Positions 21,444 to 47,803 of a stretch of DNA of 64,000 nt are shown one piece after another. The translations under genes were made by a program, and so were the position numbers. The notes beneath the pieces were generated by a model. The model saw only the letters and a program-made list of their open reading frames with translations. It had not been told where the DNA came from and did not search any database. The DNA lies in NCBI RefSeq assembly GCF_026798195.1, contig NZ_JAPQEZ010000002.1:124001-188000 (forward strand), in the 5' to 3' direction. The stretch is from Lentilactobacillus senioris. Lineage in GTDB: Bacteria > Bacillota > Bacilli > Lactobacillales > Lactobacillaceae. Positions within the stretch are counted from its first letter, which is position 1; each line of letters opens with the position of its first letter.

Positions 21444-21483
21444 CATTTCATCTAGCATTATTATCCATTCGGAATACAACGGA

Positions 21484-21556
21484 ATATGCTCCCTTCGCTG
21501 GTACTAACCAGATCAGGTTCGATGGGTGTTTCTCAGCCGTTAGGCACCCCAGATAG
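21484..21556 (-). ncRNA. TPP riboswitch (THI element)
   Basis: On the minus strand the conserved THI-box elements appear in order: GGGGTGCC, GCTGAGA, ACACCC, GAACCTGATCTGGTTAGTAC, CAGCGAAGGGA. These match the thiamine pyrophosphate aptamer core. It is followed by a terminator and the ykoEDC transporter genes. Confidence 0.95.
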
Positions 21557-21571
21557 TTGTATGATACTTGT

Positions 21572-36841: not shown

Positions 36842-37615
36842 TTAATCAGCTAAATCACTAAAGTAATCGTAAAGTTGTTCTTGGGTTAAATCTTGTTTAG
36901 CTTGTCCGTTGACGTCAAAAACAATTTGGCCGTGACTTAATACAATTAACCGGTTACCAGATTGAAGGGCATCCGTTAAATGATGGGTAATCATTAAACA
37001 GGTAAGATTTTCTTCGTTAATTCGTTGGTTAGTAATACGCATTAAATCAGTGGAGGTCTTAGGGTCTAAAGCAGCAGTATGTTCATCTAACAGTAAGATA
37101 TCTGGCCGTTTAACCGTAGCCATCAAGAAGCTAAGGGCTTGGCGCTGTCCACCAGAAAGTTTACCAGTGGGAGCATTTAGGCGCTCGTGAAGATCGTTAG
37201 GCATAGTAGCAGTCAGTTCTTCAAAAGAAGGTAGTTGTTGTTTGAGTTTTCTGGGAAGGAGAGTTCTTCGTTGCCCCCGTTTTTGGGCTAGTAGTAAGTT
37301 TTCTGCTACCGTCATCCGTGGAGCTGTTCCCATCTTGGGATCTTGGAAAACACGACTTAAAAAACGGGTCCGTTTTTCGACGCTTAAGTGAGAAATATCC
37401 TTGCCATTAAGTAAAATTTGGCCGCTGGTAATTGGCAAATCGCCTCCGATAACGTTGAATAAAGTAGATTTACCAGCACCGTTGGTCCCAAGGACGGTAA
37501 TGAAGTCGCCTTGATTAATGGTTAAATTGAGGTGATCCATAATGTTTAGTTCTTCAGGGGTTCCCGCATTTACGGTTACCACCACGTTTTTTAGTTCTAG
37601 TAATGGAGTGGCCAT
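36842..37615 (-). CDS. trpZ: ABC transporter ATP-binding protein, tryptophan-type
   Basis: ATPase of 257 aa. Walker A GTNGAGKST, signature LSGGQRQA, Walker B ILLLDEHTAALD and switch His MITHH are intact. The DEHTAALDP variant of Walker B is typical of the ABC family that serves ABC_sub_bind receptors. It starts 1 nt after the permease gene ends. Third gene of a receptor-permease-ATPase operon. Confidence 0.85.
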   Translation of the reverse strand: MATPLLELKNVVVTVNAGTPEELNIMDHLNLTINQGDFITVLGTNGAGKSTLFNVIGGDLPITSGQILLNGKDISHLSVEKRTRFLSRVFQDPKMGTAPRMTVAENLLLAQKRGQRRTLLPRKLKQQLPSFEELTATMPNDLHERLNAPTGKLSGGQRQALSFLMATVKRPDILLLDEHTAALDPKTSTDLMRITNQRINEENLTCLMITHHLTDALQSGNRLIVLSHGQIVFDVNGQAKQDLTQEQLYDYFSDLAD

Positions 37616-37616
37616 G

Positions 37617-38507
37617 TTACTTACCTCCTTTTAAGAACGTGTGTCTAAGTCTAAAGCGACTTTCCATCGCTGGGACCATCATAAAGATTGCTAACACGAT
37701 AGCTGAAATCAAATTTAAATCATTAGCATTAAAGCCAAGGGTTAAGACAATTAAAATCACGAAACGATAAAGGATACTCCCGAGGGTAGTAGCAATTAAG
37801 CGTTGATTCATCGTTAATTCTCCAAAGACCACTTCGCCAATAATAATCGAAGCTAACGCCACTACAATCACGCCGATTCCCATGTTAACGTCGGCAAAAC
37901 CGTTATTTTGGGCAACTAAAGCGCCACCTAAGGCAATTAAACCATTAGAAACCCCGACACCCATAATTTGCATGTTGTCAGTACTGATACCTAAAGATTT
38001 GGCCATGGTTGGATTATCACCAGTGGCGATAAAAGCTTGTCCAAGGTTAGTTTGGAGAAAGTAAATAATGATGGCGGTGATAATAGCGATGATGATTAAG
38101 CCCAAAACCACACTATTAAAGTATGGTGGTAATGAGTTTAGGAACTGGCCGTTGAATAGGGTGTGTTTGCCGTATAGGGAAAGGTTAGCTCGGCCCATAA
38201 TTCGTAAATTAATAGAGTACGTGGCGGTCATCACTAAGATCCCAGCCAACAGAATCGGAATTTTTCCCTTGGTGTAAAGTACTCCAGTAGCTAGACCAGC
38301 TAAAGTGCCGGCGCCAAAAGCCAACAACGTGGCTAAAATTGGTGAAACTCCGTGAGAAACGGCAGCGGCACAAACCGCGGCTCCTAAGGGAAAAGTTCCT
38401 TCTACGGTCATGTCCGGAAAGTCTAGAATTCGAAAGGTTAAGAAGAGGCCTAACCCAATGACACCCCAAATGAGGCCTTGTCCGATTGCAGATACGATTA
38501 TACTCAT
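37617..38507 (-). CDS. trpY: ABC transporter permease, tryptophan-type
   Basis: Membrane protein of 296 aa with about nine segments in the branched-chain-type permease family. GLFLTFRILDFPDMTVEGTFPLGAA at the start and ATGDNPTMAKSLGIS in the cytoplasmic loop are signatures of the permease partner of ABC_sub_bind receptors. It overlaps the receptor gene by 4 nt. Confidence 0.85.
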   Translation of the reverse strand: MSIIVSAIGQGLIWGVIGLGLFLTFRILDFPDMTVEGTFPLGAAVCAAAVSHGVSPILATLLAFGAGTLAGLATGVLYTKGKIPILLAGILVMTATYSINLRIMGRANLSLYGKHTLFNGQFLNSLPPYFNSVVLGLIIIAIITAIIIYFLQTNLGQAFIATGDNPTMAKSLGISTDNMQIMGVGVSNGLIALGGALVAQNNGFADVNMGIGVIVVALASIIIGEVVFGELTMNQRLIATTLGSILYRFVILIVLTLGFNANDLNLISAIVLAIFMMVPAMESRFRLRHTFLKGGK

Positions 38508-39502
38508 TTGATTAGTTCTCCCTTCGTTTTGGCTTCTTGAATTAAGTTAGCAGGAATATTAATACCTAGCTTCTTGGCTTGCTTTTCGTTGATAATCAGT
38601 TTACCGGTGTCGACAAATTGGATGGGTGTGGTGGCTGGATTAGCCTTACCCTTTAAAATTTTGGCGGTCATTTTACCAATCGCCACTCCGGTTTGGTATT
38701 GATCGACACTATAAGTAGCTAGGCCACCGTTTTTCACCATGGTGTCCACAGCTGGAAAAACCGGAATCCCTTGTTGATCGGCAGCGGCGGATAGGGTACT
38801 CATAGCCCCGGCGATGGTGTTATCGGTAGGAACATAAATCGCATCCACTGAGCCAGCTGCTTTTTGAGCTACTTGATTCAAGTCATTAGAGTTGGTGATG
38901 GAGTAGGCTTTATATTGGATGTGCTCTTTTTGACACATTTGAACGAACTGTTTGTATTGGGACACGGCGGAATCATCGCTGGAAGTGTAGATGATACCAA
39001 GGGTTTTGAGCTTAGGCATTAATTGTTTGATTAACCCCAGTTGTTGCTTAAGTGGTGCTCGATCAGAAACGCCGGTGATGTGGCCACCGGGGCGTTTATT
39101 ATTTTGAACCAAACCAGCGCCTTTAGGATCGGTAACGTCTCCTAAAATCACTGGGCGATTAGTGATGGTGTTGGCTAATGCTTGAGCCGCTGGGGTAGCA
39201 ATTCCAATTGAAATATCAGTGTCTTCATTTTCAAACTTGGTGCTCATGGTTTTCAGGTTACTCTGATCATTTTCAGCGTTTTGAAAATCAATCTTCAGGT
39301 TCTTACCTTCGGTGTAGCCGCCGTCCTTTAGGCCGGCAACGATTCCCTTATGAATGGCGTCAAGGGCGGGGTGAGACATTAACTGTAAGATCCCAACTGT
39401 GGGGGTCTTGCTGATTTGCTGAGAAGAAGTGGGTTGTTCTTTGACAAACGCCACTCCTAAAAATACTAGTAAAATAATAATAAGGCCGTACATTCGTTTC
39501 AT
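38504..39502 (-). CDS. trpX: Substrate-binding protein of a tryptophan-type ABC transporter
   Basis: Receptor of 332 aa in the ABC_sub_bind family. A hydrophobic N-terminus (4-20) without a lipobox Cys suggests a membrane anchor. TVGILQLMSHPALDAIHKGI, LGIIYTSSDDSAV and the C-terminal KLGINIP are typical. In streptococci and lactobacilli this family includes TrpX for tryptophan. I start at ATG 39502; upstream only a weak AGAAAG site is seen, and an in-frame TTG at 39538 lacks a site too. Preceded by a complex leader with a Trp-containing peptide. Confidence 0.83.
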   Translation of the reverse strand: MKRMYGLIIILLVFLGVAFVKEQPTSSQQISKTPTVGILQLMSHPALDAIHKGIVAGLKDGGYTEGKNLKIDFQNAENDQSNLKTMSTKFENEDTDISIGIATPAAQALANTITNRPVILGDVTDPKGAGLVQNNKRPGGHITGVSDRAPLKQQLGLIKQLMPKLKTLGIIYTSSDDSAVSQYKQFVQMCQKEHIQYKAYSITNSNDLNQVAQKAAGSVDAIYVPTDNTIAGAMSTLSAAADQQGIPVFPAVDTMVKNGGLATYSVDQYQTGVAIGKMTAKILKGKANPATTPIQFVDTGKLIINEKQAKKLGINIPANLIQEAKTKGELIK

Positions 39503-39544
39503 AGTTTTTTCTTCTTTCTTTTCAAAGTGGGTGATCAAAATTCA

Positions 39545-39594
39545 GCGAAAAAAAAACGAGTAATCCAGCCGGTGGCGGAATTACTCGAAAAAAA
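39545..39594 (-). terminator. Attenuator terminator 2 before trpX
   Basis: Minus strand: stem CGAGTAAT...ATTACTCG (39557-39587), with inner GCC/GGC, followed by T9 (39548-39556). Ends 43 nt before trpX. It begins immediately after the T run of terminator 1. Confidence 0.85.
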
Positions 39595-39623
39595 GCGGCC
39601 AGCCGGATTTCATCCGACCAGCC
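39588..39623 (-). terminator. Attenuator terminator 1 before trpX
   Basis: Minus strand: a 12-bp stem GGCTGGTCGGAT/ATCCGGCTGGCC (three G-T pairs, loop GAA, 39597-39623), then GC and T7 (39588-39594). Confidence 0.85.
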
Positions 39624-39770
39624 TTAGTTAGTGAAAGATTACCGGCCCGGATGCGTTTTTGATCGCAACAAGATCAAGCCGCATCCGAATCGATGTGACT
39701 TGTTACCGGCTTTGCCAAGTTTGAAGTACGTAACAATTAGTCATAGTAATCTTTCCTTTCGTGTGAGAAT
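39595..39770 (-). ncRNA. trpX leader RNA, probable tryptophan-responsive attenuator
   Basis: Leader of about 180 nt up to terminator 1. In order: a 13-codon ORF with one Trp codon; a long hairpin (39648-39687, CGGATGCG/CGCATCCG with inner TTGATC/GATCAA); a spacer with GCCGGTAATC (39637-39646); and two terminators. GTAATC is complementary to GATTAC in terminator 2. AGCCGG at the end of the small ORF is complementary to CCGGCT found in both terminators. It lacks the T-box sequence and matches no riboswitch I know. Confidence 0.65.
39703..39744 (-). CDS. Leader peptide with a single Trp codon
   Basis: Thirteen codons, MTNCYVLQTWQSR, then TAA. AAAGGA lies 9 nt before the ATG, a far better ribosome site than that of trpX. 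The Trp codon is the tenth, with Tyr and Cys codons nearby. The stop region (AGCCGGTAACAAG on the RNA) is complementary to parts of the downstream hairpin loop and terminators, so ribosome position would change the RNA fold. Role inferred. Confidence 0.55.
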   Translation of the reverse strand: MTNCYVLQTWQSR

Positions 39771-39776
39771 ATTTTA

Positions 39777-39806
39777 ATATTAAGCTAGTTAGGTACCATT
39801 CGTCAA
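39777..39806 (-). promoter_or_regulatory. Promoter of the trpXYZ operon
   Basis: Minus strand: -35 TTGACG (39801-39806), 18 bp, -10 TAATAT (39777-39782), placing the transcript start near 39770, just ahead of the leader peptide. Confidence 0.75.
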
Positions 39807-39835
39807 CTAAAAATATTTACAAAGGGGAATTTAAG

Positions 39836-40495
39836 ATGGCTAATCGAACGTTATTACGAGTCCTAGTACCAGAAATGGCGCGCAATCAAACGGGAAACGT
39901 TGCAAAAACAATTCAAGAATATTTATGGCAGAAACAAGTAGCTGGTTTAACCATCAGAAGGAGCTTGACCGGGTTAGCTGATTATACAGCGCGTCAAGAT
40001 AACGTCTTGGAAGATTCGGCTTTTAATAACGATCCGCTGATTTTAGAAGCCGTGTTGCCTAATGAACAATTAGCTCAAGTATTACCAACGATTAAGTCAA
40101 TGGTGGTGGAACGTGGTGAAGTGACAACCGTGCCAGAGGAGGCTGATAACAAGTTGAAAAATAATCTTAGTGAACATATGAATGTCAAAATTTTTATGAA
40201 AAACGTTAAGCAAAGTGATGGCAGGGATGATTTAGACGTTGTTTTAAATACGTTGCAAGAAGCTGGAATCGATTGGGTTTCAGTTACCAAGGGAATCAAG
40301 GGTTTTGGTAAGGAACGCAAGCAATACAGTCCCAAGTTTTCGTTTAGCAAAAACGTGCCAGTGGTGATCGATATTTTTATGACCGAGCAACAAGCTCAGG
40401 TGTTATTACCGGAATTAGAAGCAGCAGTGACCGAGGGAGTGGTGTTTAAAACTAGTGCTAGTTTAGTAATTAAAAATGAAGGAGTGAGGCGTTAA
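39836..40495 (+). CDS. Tandem DUF190 protein linked to CrcB
   Basis: Protein of 219 aa made of two DUF190 domains (about 5-105 and 115-215), a PII/GlnB-like ferredoxin fold. Each half has a strand LRVLVPEM or MNVKIFMKN, a helix and a GxxG or IKGFGKERK loop. DUF190 proteins commonly sit next to crcB and may regulate or assist fluoride export (established association, role unproven). AAAGGGG precedes ATG 39836. Its stop overlaps the first crcB start by 1 nt. Confidence 0.82.
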   Translation: MANRTLLRVLVPEMARNQTGNVAKTIQEYLWQKQVAGLTIRRSLTGLADYTARQDNVLEDSAFNNDPLILEAVLPNEQLAQVLPTIKSMVVERGEVTTVPEEADNKLKNNLSEHMNVKIFMKNVKQSDGRDDLDVVLNTLQEAGIDWVSVTKGIKGFGKERKQYSPKFSFSKNVPVVIDIFMTEQQAQVLLPELEAAVTEGVVFKTSASLVIKNEGVRR

Positions 40496-40881
40496 TGAAT
40501 TATTTAGTAGTTGCCTGCTTTGCTTTTTTGGGTGGCGTTACCCGTTACGGAATTAGTTTGTGGCTAGCTCCAACGCACGGTTTTCCGGTAGCTACCTTAT
40601 TAGTTAATTTAGTAGGCTGCTTTTTGTTAGCGTTTATTAGTCATTATGTTGGTGAAGTCAGTAAATTACCTAGTAGTGTAATTGTTGGTATGGGGACTGG
40701 TTTTGTCGGCGCTATGACCACTTTTTCTACCTTTAGTAATGAAACACTGCAAATGTTTTTACATCATCAATATGGGTTGGCGTTTATGTATGACGGAATT
40801 AGTCTATTTGGTGGCCTGTTAATTAGTTGGACAGCAATTTGGCTTAGCAGACAATTAGTAGAACGGAGGCGACCTGCATGA
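40495..40881 (+). CDS. crcB: Fluoride channel CrcB/Fluc, first subunit
   Basis: Small membrane protein of 128 aa with four helices. GGVTRYGIS, NLVGCFLLAF and GAMTTFSTFSNE hold the Arg, Asn, central Na-site and Phe-box elements of Fluc channels. Fluc works as a dual-topology dimer; two adjacent crcB genes usually give a heterodimer. It overlaps the following crcB by 4 nt. Confidence 0.93.
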   Translation: MNYLVVACFAFLGGVTRYGISLWLAPTHGFPVATLLVNLVGCFLLAFISHYVGEVSKLPSSVIVGMGTGFVGAMTTFSTFSNETLQMFLHHQYGLAFMYDGISLFGGLLISWTAIWLSRQLVERRRPA

Positions 40882-41222
40882 ATTTATTACTAGTTGGTGG
40901 CGGTGCGATGGTGGGTGCTAGTGCCCGCTACGGTATTTCTAACTTAGTCAAAAAGTACATTTTAATTACTTTTCCAATCGCCACGTTAGTGATTAACCTA
41001 CTTGGCTGTTTTTTGATGGGGTTACTGTTGGCCCAAGGGTGGGGCAATTCTGCCTGGTTGTTGTTAGGAACCGGGGTACTTGGTGGTTTTACCACTTTTT
41101 CCACTTTTATGAACGAATCCGCAATGTTAATTAATGCCCGTCAGTGGGGCCGATTAATCACCTATCTCTTAGTGAGTTATGTGGGCGGCTGGGGATTGTT
41201 GTGGTTAGGAATGCAGATTTAG
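40878..41222 (+). CDS. crcB: Fluoride channel CrcB/Fluc, second subunit
   Basis: Membrane protein of 114 aa with four helices and motifs GASARYGIS, NLLGCFLMG and GGFTTFSTFMNE. GGAGG lies in the end of the first crcB. The positive-charge pattern differs from the first subunit, as expected for opposite topology in a heterodimer. No fluoride riboswitch is seen before the operon and no clear terminator after it. Confidence 0.93.
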   Translation: MNLLLVGGGAMVGASARYGISNLVKKYILITFPIATLVINLLGCFLMGLLLAQGWGNSAWLLLGTGVLGGFTTFSTFMNESAMLINARQWGRLITYLLVSYVGGWGLLWLGMQI

Positions 41223-46486: not shown

Positions 46487-46504
46487 AATATTCAACAAAA
46501 TAAA

Positions 46505-46766
46505 AACGTATGAGAGACAAGTACATTAGGCAGGCACTATCAGTGAGATGGGAACTAGTGAAAACCCATTTAGTTGCGGCTTAGTCGAATAACACTCTCT
46601 AAGTTTCATACTGAAATGCGAATGCAAAGTAGGTGTTGGCGTCGTCGGAACGTTACTACCGGAGCGTATGTTAGTACGTATTAGAGTGTCTTGTGTATGC
46701 AAGAAACTTGGGTGGTACCGCGAAAGGTCTTTCGTCCCTTGTTAGAAGGGATGAGGGGCTTTTTTA
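46505..46766 (+). ncRNA. T-box riboswitch, asparagine-specific
   Basis: Stem I with an AGTA motif (near 46520) and a specifier loop whose codon is AAC (46591-46593, Asn), the T-box core TGGGTGGTACCGCG (46709-46722) and a terminator (stem 46727-46739 with 46747-46759, then T6). Uncharged tRNA-Asn would favour antitermination. The downstream gene is asnA, agreeing with the specifier. Confidence 0.93.
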
Positions 46767-46796: not shown

Positions 46797-47803
46797 ATGC
46801 CAGTAGTTATTCCCACCGATTATGATGCAAAATTTCTCCTCGTAAGACCCAAGAAGCGATTCGGTTTATTCGTGATACGTTTCAAACCGAATTTGGCAAG
46901 CAATTAAATTTATCACGATTATCGGCACCAATGTTTGTTGATCATGATACCGGATTAAACGATAATTTAAGCGGTACTGAAACACCAGTTAACTTCACAA
47001 TGGTGGGGCTGCCCGGTCATCGAATTGAAATTGTCCATTCTTTAGCTAAGTGGAAGCGCATGGCCCTAGCTAGATTTGAATTTGGGATGCATGAAGGCTT
47101 GTATACCAACATGAACGCGATTCGTAAGGATGAGGAGTTAGACAACTTTCATTCTATTTACGTGGATCAGTGGGACTGGGAAAAAGTGATCGCTAAAGAT
47201 GAGTTGAATGAACACACCTTGCGCGAAACCGTAGAACAAATTTTTCAGGTGTTAAAGCACGTAGAAGGTGAAGTTGCCAATCAATATCCGGAAGCTGTTC
47301 ATCATTTACCAGAACAAATTCATTTTATTACCACCCAACAATTGGAAGACCGCTGGCCAGATAAAACTCCTAAGGAACGCGAAAATGCTATTACTAAAGA
47401 ATTAGGTGCAGTTTTCTTGATGCAAATTGGTGGCTACCTTAACTCTGGTGAAAAACATGACTTTAGAGCCCCAGATTATGATAACTGGGAGCTAAACGGA
47501 GATATTTTATTCTGGTATGAGCCATTGCAACGAGCCATTGAAATTTCTAGCATGGGAGTCCGAGTGGATGAAGAGACTTTGTTAAAACAATTGAAGCTCT
47601 ACGATGCCGAAGATCGAATTCAATTTCCGTTCCATCAAGCCTTGTTAAACGGCAAATTACCGTACACAATTGGTGGTGGCATTGGTCAATCTCGAGTGTG
47701 CATGTTGTTGCTAGGTAAAGCGCACGTAGGTGAAGTGCAAGCTAGTATTTGGCCCCAAGCAATGATTGATGAATGTGAAGCAGCAGGAATTCATTTACTA
47801 TAA
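46797..47803 (+). pseudogene. asnA: Aspartate-ammonia ligase (asparagine synthetase A), frameshifted
   Basis: Makes asparagine from aspartate and ammonia. The N-terminus [12 protein letters not shown] (ATG 46797, GGATCT-type site) is in one frame; the continuation [14 protein letters not shown]...[17 protein letters not shown] is in the -1 frame. The break is at the AAAA run 46829-46832, where one missing A restores the frame (AAA ATT TCT). Frame 0 stops at about 46907. The rest, ending in [23 protein letters not shown], is intact. An internal start at 46931 would lack about 45 residues and has no ribosome site. Either a true pseudogene or a one-base sequence error. Confidence 0.85.

Follow-up and report, generated by a model that had tools for sequence, protein, structure and literature searches.

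How Lentilactobacillus senioris adjusts the synthesis of its tryptophan transporter is the question raised by the region in front of trpX, on the minus strand at 39806-39503 of a 64,000-nucleotide stretch of its genome (the window, in which all positions are counted). An earlier interpretation of the bare letters, here called the sequence-only reading, had seen in this region a small open reading frame (ORF) with one Trp codon, a long hairpin and two successive terminators, and had suggested that both terminators are controlled either by a ribosome stalling at the Trp codon or by a TnaC-like response to free tryptophan. We hold with high confidence that the region is a ribosome-mediated transcription attenuator, which ties trpX expression to charged tRNA-Trp.

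The gene behind the leader, trpX (38504..39502, minus strand, as are all other features of the locus), codes for the substrate-binding protein of a tryptophan ABC transporter. Its ORF scores 471 bits against the NCBIfam TrpX equivalog, whose cut-off is 390, so the tryptophan-type receptor claimed earlier is borne out. Genes for an ABC permease (BPD_transp_2, 37617..38507) and an ABC ATPase (36842..37615) complete the operon. The leader itself has the anatomy described before: the ORF, its ribosome site, the hairpin, the two terminators with their T7 and T9 runs and the receptor gene were all confirmed. At its upstream end are promoter-like boxes TTGACG (-35) and TAATAT (-10) with an 18-nt spacer (39777..39806), named from consensus (9/12 matches); two such sites occur within 39200-40000 against 1.4 expected in shuffles, so that the site is weak when taken alone. 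The leader ribosome site GAAAGGAAAG (39751..39760) is followed by the leader peptide ORF MTNCYVLQTWQSR, of 13 codons (39703..39744), with the Trp codon at 39717-39715. Directly 3' of the leader stop codon comes segment A, CAAGTCACATC (39692..39702), and then the long hairpin P1 (39687-39648). The 5' arm of P1 is segment B, CGGATGCGGCTTG (39675..39687), to which A is an alternative partner. Segment C, CGCATCCGGGCCGG (39642..39655), consists of the 3' arm of P1 and a GCCGG shoulder, and can pair with B or with D. The linker 3' of P1, GTAATCTTTC (39633..39642), is complementary to the leader ribosome site, namely to its GAAAGATTAC (39755-39746). Terminator 1 (39597..39623) is composed of segments D (39623-39612) and E (39608-39597) with the T7 run behind them. 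Terminator 2 with its T9 run occupies 39548..39587 (stem 39587-39557), and can pair with E. A scan for intrinsic terminators listed terminator 1 alone, one found against 0.8 expected. From the ribosome site to terminator 2 the leader folds with -81.2 kcal/mol (z -6.7), and 0/200 shuffles were as good.

A T-box was considered and rejected, as the T-box covariance model has no match at the trpX leader; the sequence-only reading had likewise seen no T-box core. The sole T-box of the window is at 46500 (+). This T-box leader (46500-46742, +) precedes ORF 46931-47803 (+), which we take to be an aspartate--ammonia ligase gene and whose N-terminus is seemingly absent in that frame, possibly owing to a frameshift. 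The window also holds a TPP riboswitch above the Rfam cut-off (21472-21561, -) and, adjoining the trpX promoter region, a divergent DUF190 gene together with two small membrane proteins (39836-41222, +), presumably CrcB fluoride channels.

That no described class has this layout, as the earlier interpretation put it, is true in part. In a permissive Rfam scan, 39691-39586 matches RF04312 along its full length (positions 1-107 of 107), with the order of P1, linker and terminator kept, at 32.3 bits (E 0.0066), below the cut-off of 59. RF04312, the trpB motif or SRC-39-1, was published as a strong riboswitch candidate with covariation; its members, over 900 and from both Firmicutes and Fusobacteria, mostly precede an uncharacterised amino-acid ABC transporter, and a classic attenuator was not ruled out by its discoverers (PMC11109978; statements on this and the other cited papers refer to the available parts of their text). 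The hairpin and terminator part of the layout is thus known, and the part that stands is the leader peptide, of which the available text of PMC11109978 makes no mention. No further paper on the "trpB motif" was found in the searched literature, nor any match to the peptides WQNWRR, WQSWRR and WQSWHR, nor a description of a Trp leader peptide for trpX; this literature was partial and without supplementary files.

RF04312 was detected at E<=0.001 in 159 of 295 genomes of the order of the window (above cut-off in 52/295), in 29 of 147 genomes of another order, and in the phylum scan at E<=0.001 in 4 of 398 genomes, two of these four being false. In the window's own genome three other places outscore 32.3 bits, and the four other RF04312-like places looked at there are, by eye, terminators or the end of a T-box. 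Three loci, L029, L030 and L130, were judged to be false matches, and A:B pairing is lacking in them (z 0.2 to 1.0); they were removed ahead of the pairing counts (156 to 153 loci) and kept in the sets of 113 and 205 loci used below. Since RF04312-like scores occur at plain tandem terminators (in the own genome and at L029 and L130), the leader might be an ordinary terminator pair that ends a short RNA, and its ORF might be spurious. Yet L029, L030 and L130 are without A:B pairing, whereas the genus of the window has a conserved ORF and covariation both in A:B and in the pairing of the ribosome site with the linker (SD:linker), and we give this explanation next to no credit.

The sequence-only reading had proposed an alignment of the same interval from relatives, and had named as contrary outcome that neither the ORF nor the stems are conserved there. 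TrpX protein is present in 22 of 24 genomes of the genus, and all 22 trpX loci have a leader ORF whose only Trp is followed by Gln (WQ); the alternative stems covary, as detailed below. The peptides are 12-13 residues long with variable N-terminus, and in the window Trp lies 3 residues ahead of the last residue. At two genus loci, L020 and L021, extra repeat-like hairpin DNA separates terminator 2 from trpX, and the leader is present in both. Ahead of RF04312 matches, the ORF was picked blind, by the strength of its ribosome site and with no regard to its content. Of 113 matches read this way (110 among the order's matches listed and three from elsewhere in the phylum), 105 gave an ORF with Trp and 90 one with WQ, compared with 11, 13 and 7 for Trp and 0, 0 and 0 for WQ in three shuffled controls. 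Mean ribosome-site energy was -11.2 against -5.6 to -6.0 in shuffles, and the stop codon was at the expected place in 110/113 loci against 36, 36 and 44 in the three shuffled sets. Eight picks have no Trp: the false matches L029, L030 and L130; L113, whose second-choice ORF is a WQ leader; L095, where a longer ORF contains Trp (by eye); and L028, L076 and L134, which are Phe/Tyr leaders. Among the 127 Trp leaders collected in total, 60 have one Trp and 67 have two or more near the end.

In the other order, where 43 loci were read (L140-L158 and L188-L211), the control codon is exchanged. Leaders there carry, for example, FIHHHH, LLLLANLR, FFSYFR or YYFNYYR, and the blind first choice was a His leader in 7, a Leu leader in 7 and a Phe/Tyr leader in 27 loci; in the two without class, L206 and L211, a His leader ranks second. 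Taken by itself the Phe/Tyr rule discriminates poorly, being satisfied by 13, 22 and 14 of 43 shuffles. What distinguishes the real leaders is a stronger ribosome site (mean -10.0, in shuffles -4.4 to -5.1) and a stop codon in the expected place (41/43 against 9, 17 and 18). Paralogues of TrpX in the window's own order have Phe/Tyr leaders as well, in 29/29 loci of one search, in which leaders were picked by a rule of at least two aromatic residues and the choice was thus not blind. One such paralogue, L025, belongs to the window's genome, with the leader MNIYSNNHSQLNNKFAFSFFFR.

The control codon fits the gene behind the leader. We tabulated 205 loci: 156 RF04312 matches, 20 trpX loci from the genus and 29 loci of receptor paralogues. 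L020 and L021 are not among them, as their extra DNA sets the leader beyond the search range. Representative downstream genes were named with NCBIfam, and the remaining loci were assigned by similarity to them. hisS, trpB and a BrnQ-type carrier score above cut-off and sodium symporters, which fall into two clades (A and B below), were recognised by a subfamily model, while for hisZ the best match is below cut-off (218 of 272 bits) and the receptor paralogues are TrpX-like, also below cut-off. Trp leaders are followed by the TrpX receptor (115 loci), TrpB (5), an ABC permease (3) or an unassigned gene (4); Phe/Tyr leaders by a receptor paralogue (31), sodium symporter B (20), a permease (5), BrnQ (2) or an unassigned gene (1, L195); His leaders by HisRS (8) or HisZ (1); and Leu leaders by symporter A (7) or an unassigned gene (1, the false match L029). 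The two loci without codon class are the false matches L030 and L130. Between codon classes and next genes there is zero crossover across the 205 loci. The ORF behind the His-leader hisZ is presumably hisG.

Several single cases may be added. By a crude rule, 28 of 80 named sodium-symporter loci have a leader, though part of these are chance finds. T-boxes of the sodium-symporter family have been described with specificity for Leu, Phe and Trp (PMC2494555), in line with the codon swaps seen here. Sodium-symporter genes in Fusobacterium and Cetobacterium metagenome-assembled genomes (L289 and L296) have, by eye, Trp-rich leaders, FYWWRS and LFWWWP, which suggests that the scaffold, with Trp codons, extends to Fusobacteriota as well. 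The BrnQ-type carriers of L146 and L150 have the annotation of branched-chain transporters, but their Tyr/Phe leaders suggest an aromatic substrate.

Receptor proteins allow the codon to be compared with substrate specificity at the level of structure. SP1069 (3LFT) binds Trp and holds the indole with Gln-284, and Tyr is found at this position in CD0873 (6HNI, Tyr) and VC_1101 (3LKV, Phe) (PMC6816091). The best structural match of the window TrpX is 3LFT and that of its paralogue L025 is 6HNI; the specificity column corresponds to Gln-268 of the window TrpX, counted from the ATG. This column is occupied by Gln in 115/115 Trp-leader receptors and by Tyr in 31/31 Phe/Tyr-leader receptors, an agreement of codon and residue in 146/146 receptors that form two paralogous clades and are not independent events. 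Nineteen further receptors (16 loci, one repeating L076) have Tyr or Phe there and never Gln; 13 of them have a Phe/Tyr leader, one a doubtful ORF with Trp, one a chance ORF and four none. The His, Leu and trpB cases bring further gene families to the match of codon and gene.

In sensors of the TnaC type the nascent chain is conserved, and its Trp lies about 12 residues ahead of the stop site. The second suggestion of the sequence-only reading, that the nascent peptide binds free Trp and the ribosome stalls at the leader stop codon, agrees with the single Trp codon near the stop in 22/22 genus leaders and with WQ in 90 of the 113 matches. The short peptide, the variable N-terminus and the position of Trp in the window place this leader outside the TnaC type. 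Moreover, the scaffold occurs elsewhere with His, Leu or Phe/Tyr in place of Trp, and under the attenuator model the OFF fold would result if the ribosome were held at the stop, where it would cover A. A TnaC-like response has therefore been given up as very improbable, and the position of the ribosome at the Trp codon, the first of the two suggestions, is supported by the conservation of ORF and Trp codon and by the codon-swapped relatives. The agreement of codon, gene and specificity residue supports it as well, together with covariation of the alternative stems.

What we infer from sequence is the order of events, the response to tryptophan and the chain that would couple both terminators. 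The 13-codon leader with its one Trp codon would be translated while the RNA is being made. With ample Trp the ribosome would reach the stop codon and cover A, upon which B:C (P1), D:E (terminator 1) and terminator 2 (T2) would form and transcription would stop. When Trp is low, the ribosome would wait at the Trp codon and leave A open; A:B would then free C, C:D would free E, and E would pair with T2, so that neither terminator forms. The leader would thus exist in two phases, (A:B)(C:D)(E:T2) without terminator when the ribosome is stalled and (B:C)(D:E)(T2) when it has finished. The same RF04312 scaffold would serve His, Leu and Phe/Tyr with other control codons.

The layout has what is expected of an attenuator, a conserved ORF with ribosome site upstream of a terminator and control codons fitting the gene, and its dimensions agree with a ribosome acting as the switch. 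The first control codon is 14-25 nt ahead of A, and A itself extends from 0-2 nt to 17-20 nt past the first base of the stop codon (class medians in both cases; single loci scatter more); in the window the first base of the Trp codon is 15 nt ahead of A. On the downstream side, the footprint of a ribosome reaches about 12-13 nt beyond its A site. Given this footprint and these distances, a ribosome at the control codon would leave A open and one at the stop codon would cover most of it.

Mutually exclusive pairings are present in the family, and in the window they are seen as complementarity together with the A:B covariation of the genus. Pairing energies in the window are -13.7 (A:B), -15.6 (B:C), -14.6 (C:D), -20.3 (D:E), -18.6 (E:T2), -16.0 (T2 alone) and -15.9 (SD:linker) kcal/mol. 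The complementarity of AGCCGG to both terminators, pointed out by the sequence-only reading, belongs to these alternative pairings; two other pairings that it listed, GTAACAAG:CTTGTTGC and GTAATC:GATTAC, are by eye not kept in the genus and were dropped. Across the family A:B reaches p<=0.05 in 138/153 loci (mean z -4.5), the own partner beats a swapped partner in 152/153, and C:D reaches p<=0.05 in 108/153. In anchored counts of A:B, 82.5% of the cells are paired and 215 cells show a double change; with B shuffled among loci the means are 70.7% and 73. When the region from A to D was folded with A free, A:B formed in 116/153 and C:D in 117/153 loci; with A masked, P1 formed in 152/153 and C:D in 52/153. 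All four features of the full predicted switch coincided in 47/153 loci. The window's P1 contains an additional inner helix, and here freeing A does not displace P1 from the minimum-energy fold. Its equilibrium fold does not switch and therefore its switch would have to be kinetic, with A:B forming first in transcription. C:D has p 0.083 against shuffles in the window, and p<=0.05 in 6 of 19 genus rows, several of them mis-segmented.

Among 20 distinct leaders of the genus, A:B has 96.5% of its cells paired and 2 pairs changed on both sides, and its covariation score was reached by 0/500 shuffles. The SD:linker helix, in the same number of leaders, has 95% of its cells paired (94.1% when taken with P1) and 4 of 10 pairs changed on both sides. 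For both helices, none of the 500 shuffles and none of the slid versions equals the real alignment in covariation score, paired cells or double-change cells; the remaining two of five measures are not above all shuffles, with 389/500 for further pair types and 153/500 for double-change pairs in A:B, and 257/500 and 14/500 in SD:linker.

These pairings also bear on the proposal of the discoverers of RF04312, according to which it is a metabolite-binding riboswitch and the small ORF would be incidental. The sequence of P1 is conserved, and the motif was published as a strong candidate with covariation (PMC11109978). But a single scaffold stands ahead of genes for Trp, Phe/Tyr, His and Leu, each time with ORF codons to match, A and C compete for B as B and D compete for C, and the geometry from ORF to A is constant. 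We consider the riboswitch highly unlikely and retain the attenuator.

The SD:linker helix points to an additional element of this attenuator. In the full-length minimum fold without ribosome the linker closes the ribosome site and P1 and both terminators form. An RNA of this genus on which no ribosome has loaded would thus be folded into the terminated state, and the gene would be off. The pairing of linker and leader reaches p<=0.05 in 19/20 genus leaders and 8/9 His leaders, compared with 13/107 other Trp, 8/30 Phe/Tyr and 1/7 Leu leaders; because it is frequent only in the genus and the His leaders, such a fail-safe would be branch-specific. In three hisS leaders (L157, L203, L205) the linker after P1 is complementary to the beginning of the leader ORF (-25 kcal/mol in L157); the complementarity includes the His codons in L157 and L203.

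Joint control of both terminators, as claimed by the sequence-only reading, is the weakest step of the chain, although plausible in the window, where E:T2 has p 0.017 against shuffles. Elsewhere E:T2 reaches p<=0.05 in only 54 of 118 loci having a second terminator and in 8 of 19 genus rows, several mis-segmented. A U-run follows terminator 1 in 3 of the 20 genus leaders checked (the window, L002 and L003) and terminator 2 in all 20, so that 17 have it after terminator 2 alone. These counts would also agree with the same attenuator having one relevant terminator, terminator 2 in this genus, and E:T2 complementarity by chance. Against this, a terminator-1-like stem persists, by eye, in most relatives lacking the U-run, and in the window E:T2 is stronger than terminator 2 alone. 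We regard the single relevant terminator as a serious possibility, if a somewhat doubtful one.

The attenuator combines traits of several known systems. With the trpB motif as described it shares the P1 hairpin, a shoulder with antiterminator potential, the terminator and the position ahead of amino-acid transporter genes and trpB; it differs in the leader peptide, the codon swaps and segment A, and the window copy scores below the cut-off (PMC11109978). As in the trp and his attenuators of Escherichia coli, the position of the ribosome on control codons would select antiterminator or terminator. Unlike there, A starts at the stop codon, up to two terminators are present, 60 of the 127 Trp leaders have one Trp, and in this genus the linker can close the leader ribosome site. 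His leader attenuators with alternative hairpins, ahead of hisS, hisZ and his operons, were proposed earlier for Firmicutes and resemble our His leaders; they concern His alone, in bacilli, Peptostreptococcaceae/Lutispora and Erysipelotrichales, and in the available text of these papers no link to RF04312 or to Trp, Phe/Tyr or Leu versions was found (PMC2965389, PMC9413887). Other candidate leader ORFs have been described, including a Phe one ahead of aroF in Acholeplasma (PMC8632094). In Streptococcus suis, trpXYZ codes for the same transporter type and is subject to transcription attenuation upstream of trpX, but by a T-box (PMC9382623), for which the present leader gave no match. Within the searched literature, what appears to be new is a leader attenuator with exchangeable control codons in one scaffold hitherto catalogued among riboswitch candidates.

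For the family as a whole we lean, with some reserve, towards the following: RF04312 would be, instead of a riboswitch, an attenuator scaffold with exchangeable codons that is widespread in Firmicutes and probably present in Fusobacteria too. In it, alternating complementary copies would form a chain, A-B-C-D-E-terminator 2, whose phase depends on the place of a single ribosome, and two terminators would be gated by this one decision. In some branches a linker that closes off the leader's ribosome site or its control codons would keep untranslated RNAs off, and the control codon would predict the transporter substrate. These bacteria are usually thought to use T-boxes for such control. If our interpretation is true, leader-peptide attenuation would be common in bacteria thought to rely on T-boxes, and it would be settled what kind of RNA this orphan class is, of which over 900 members have been reported (PMC11109978). 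The leader codon would then read out transporter specificity, for Trp, Phe/Tyr, Leu or His, in agreement with the specificity residue known from crystal structures.
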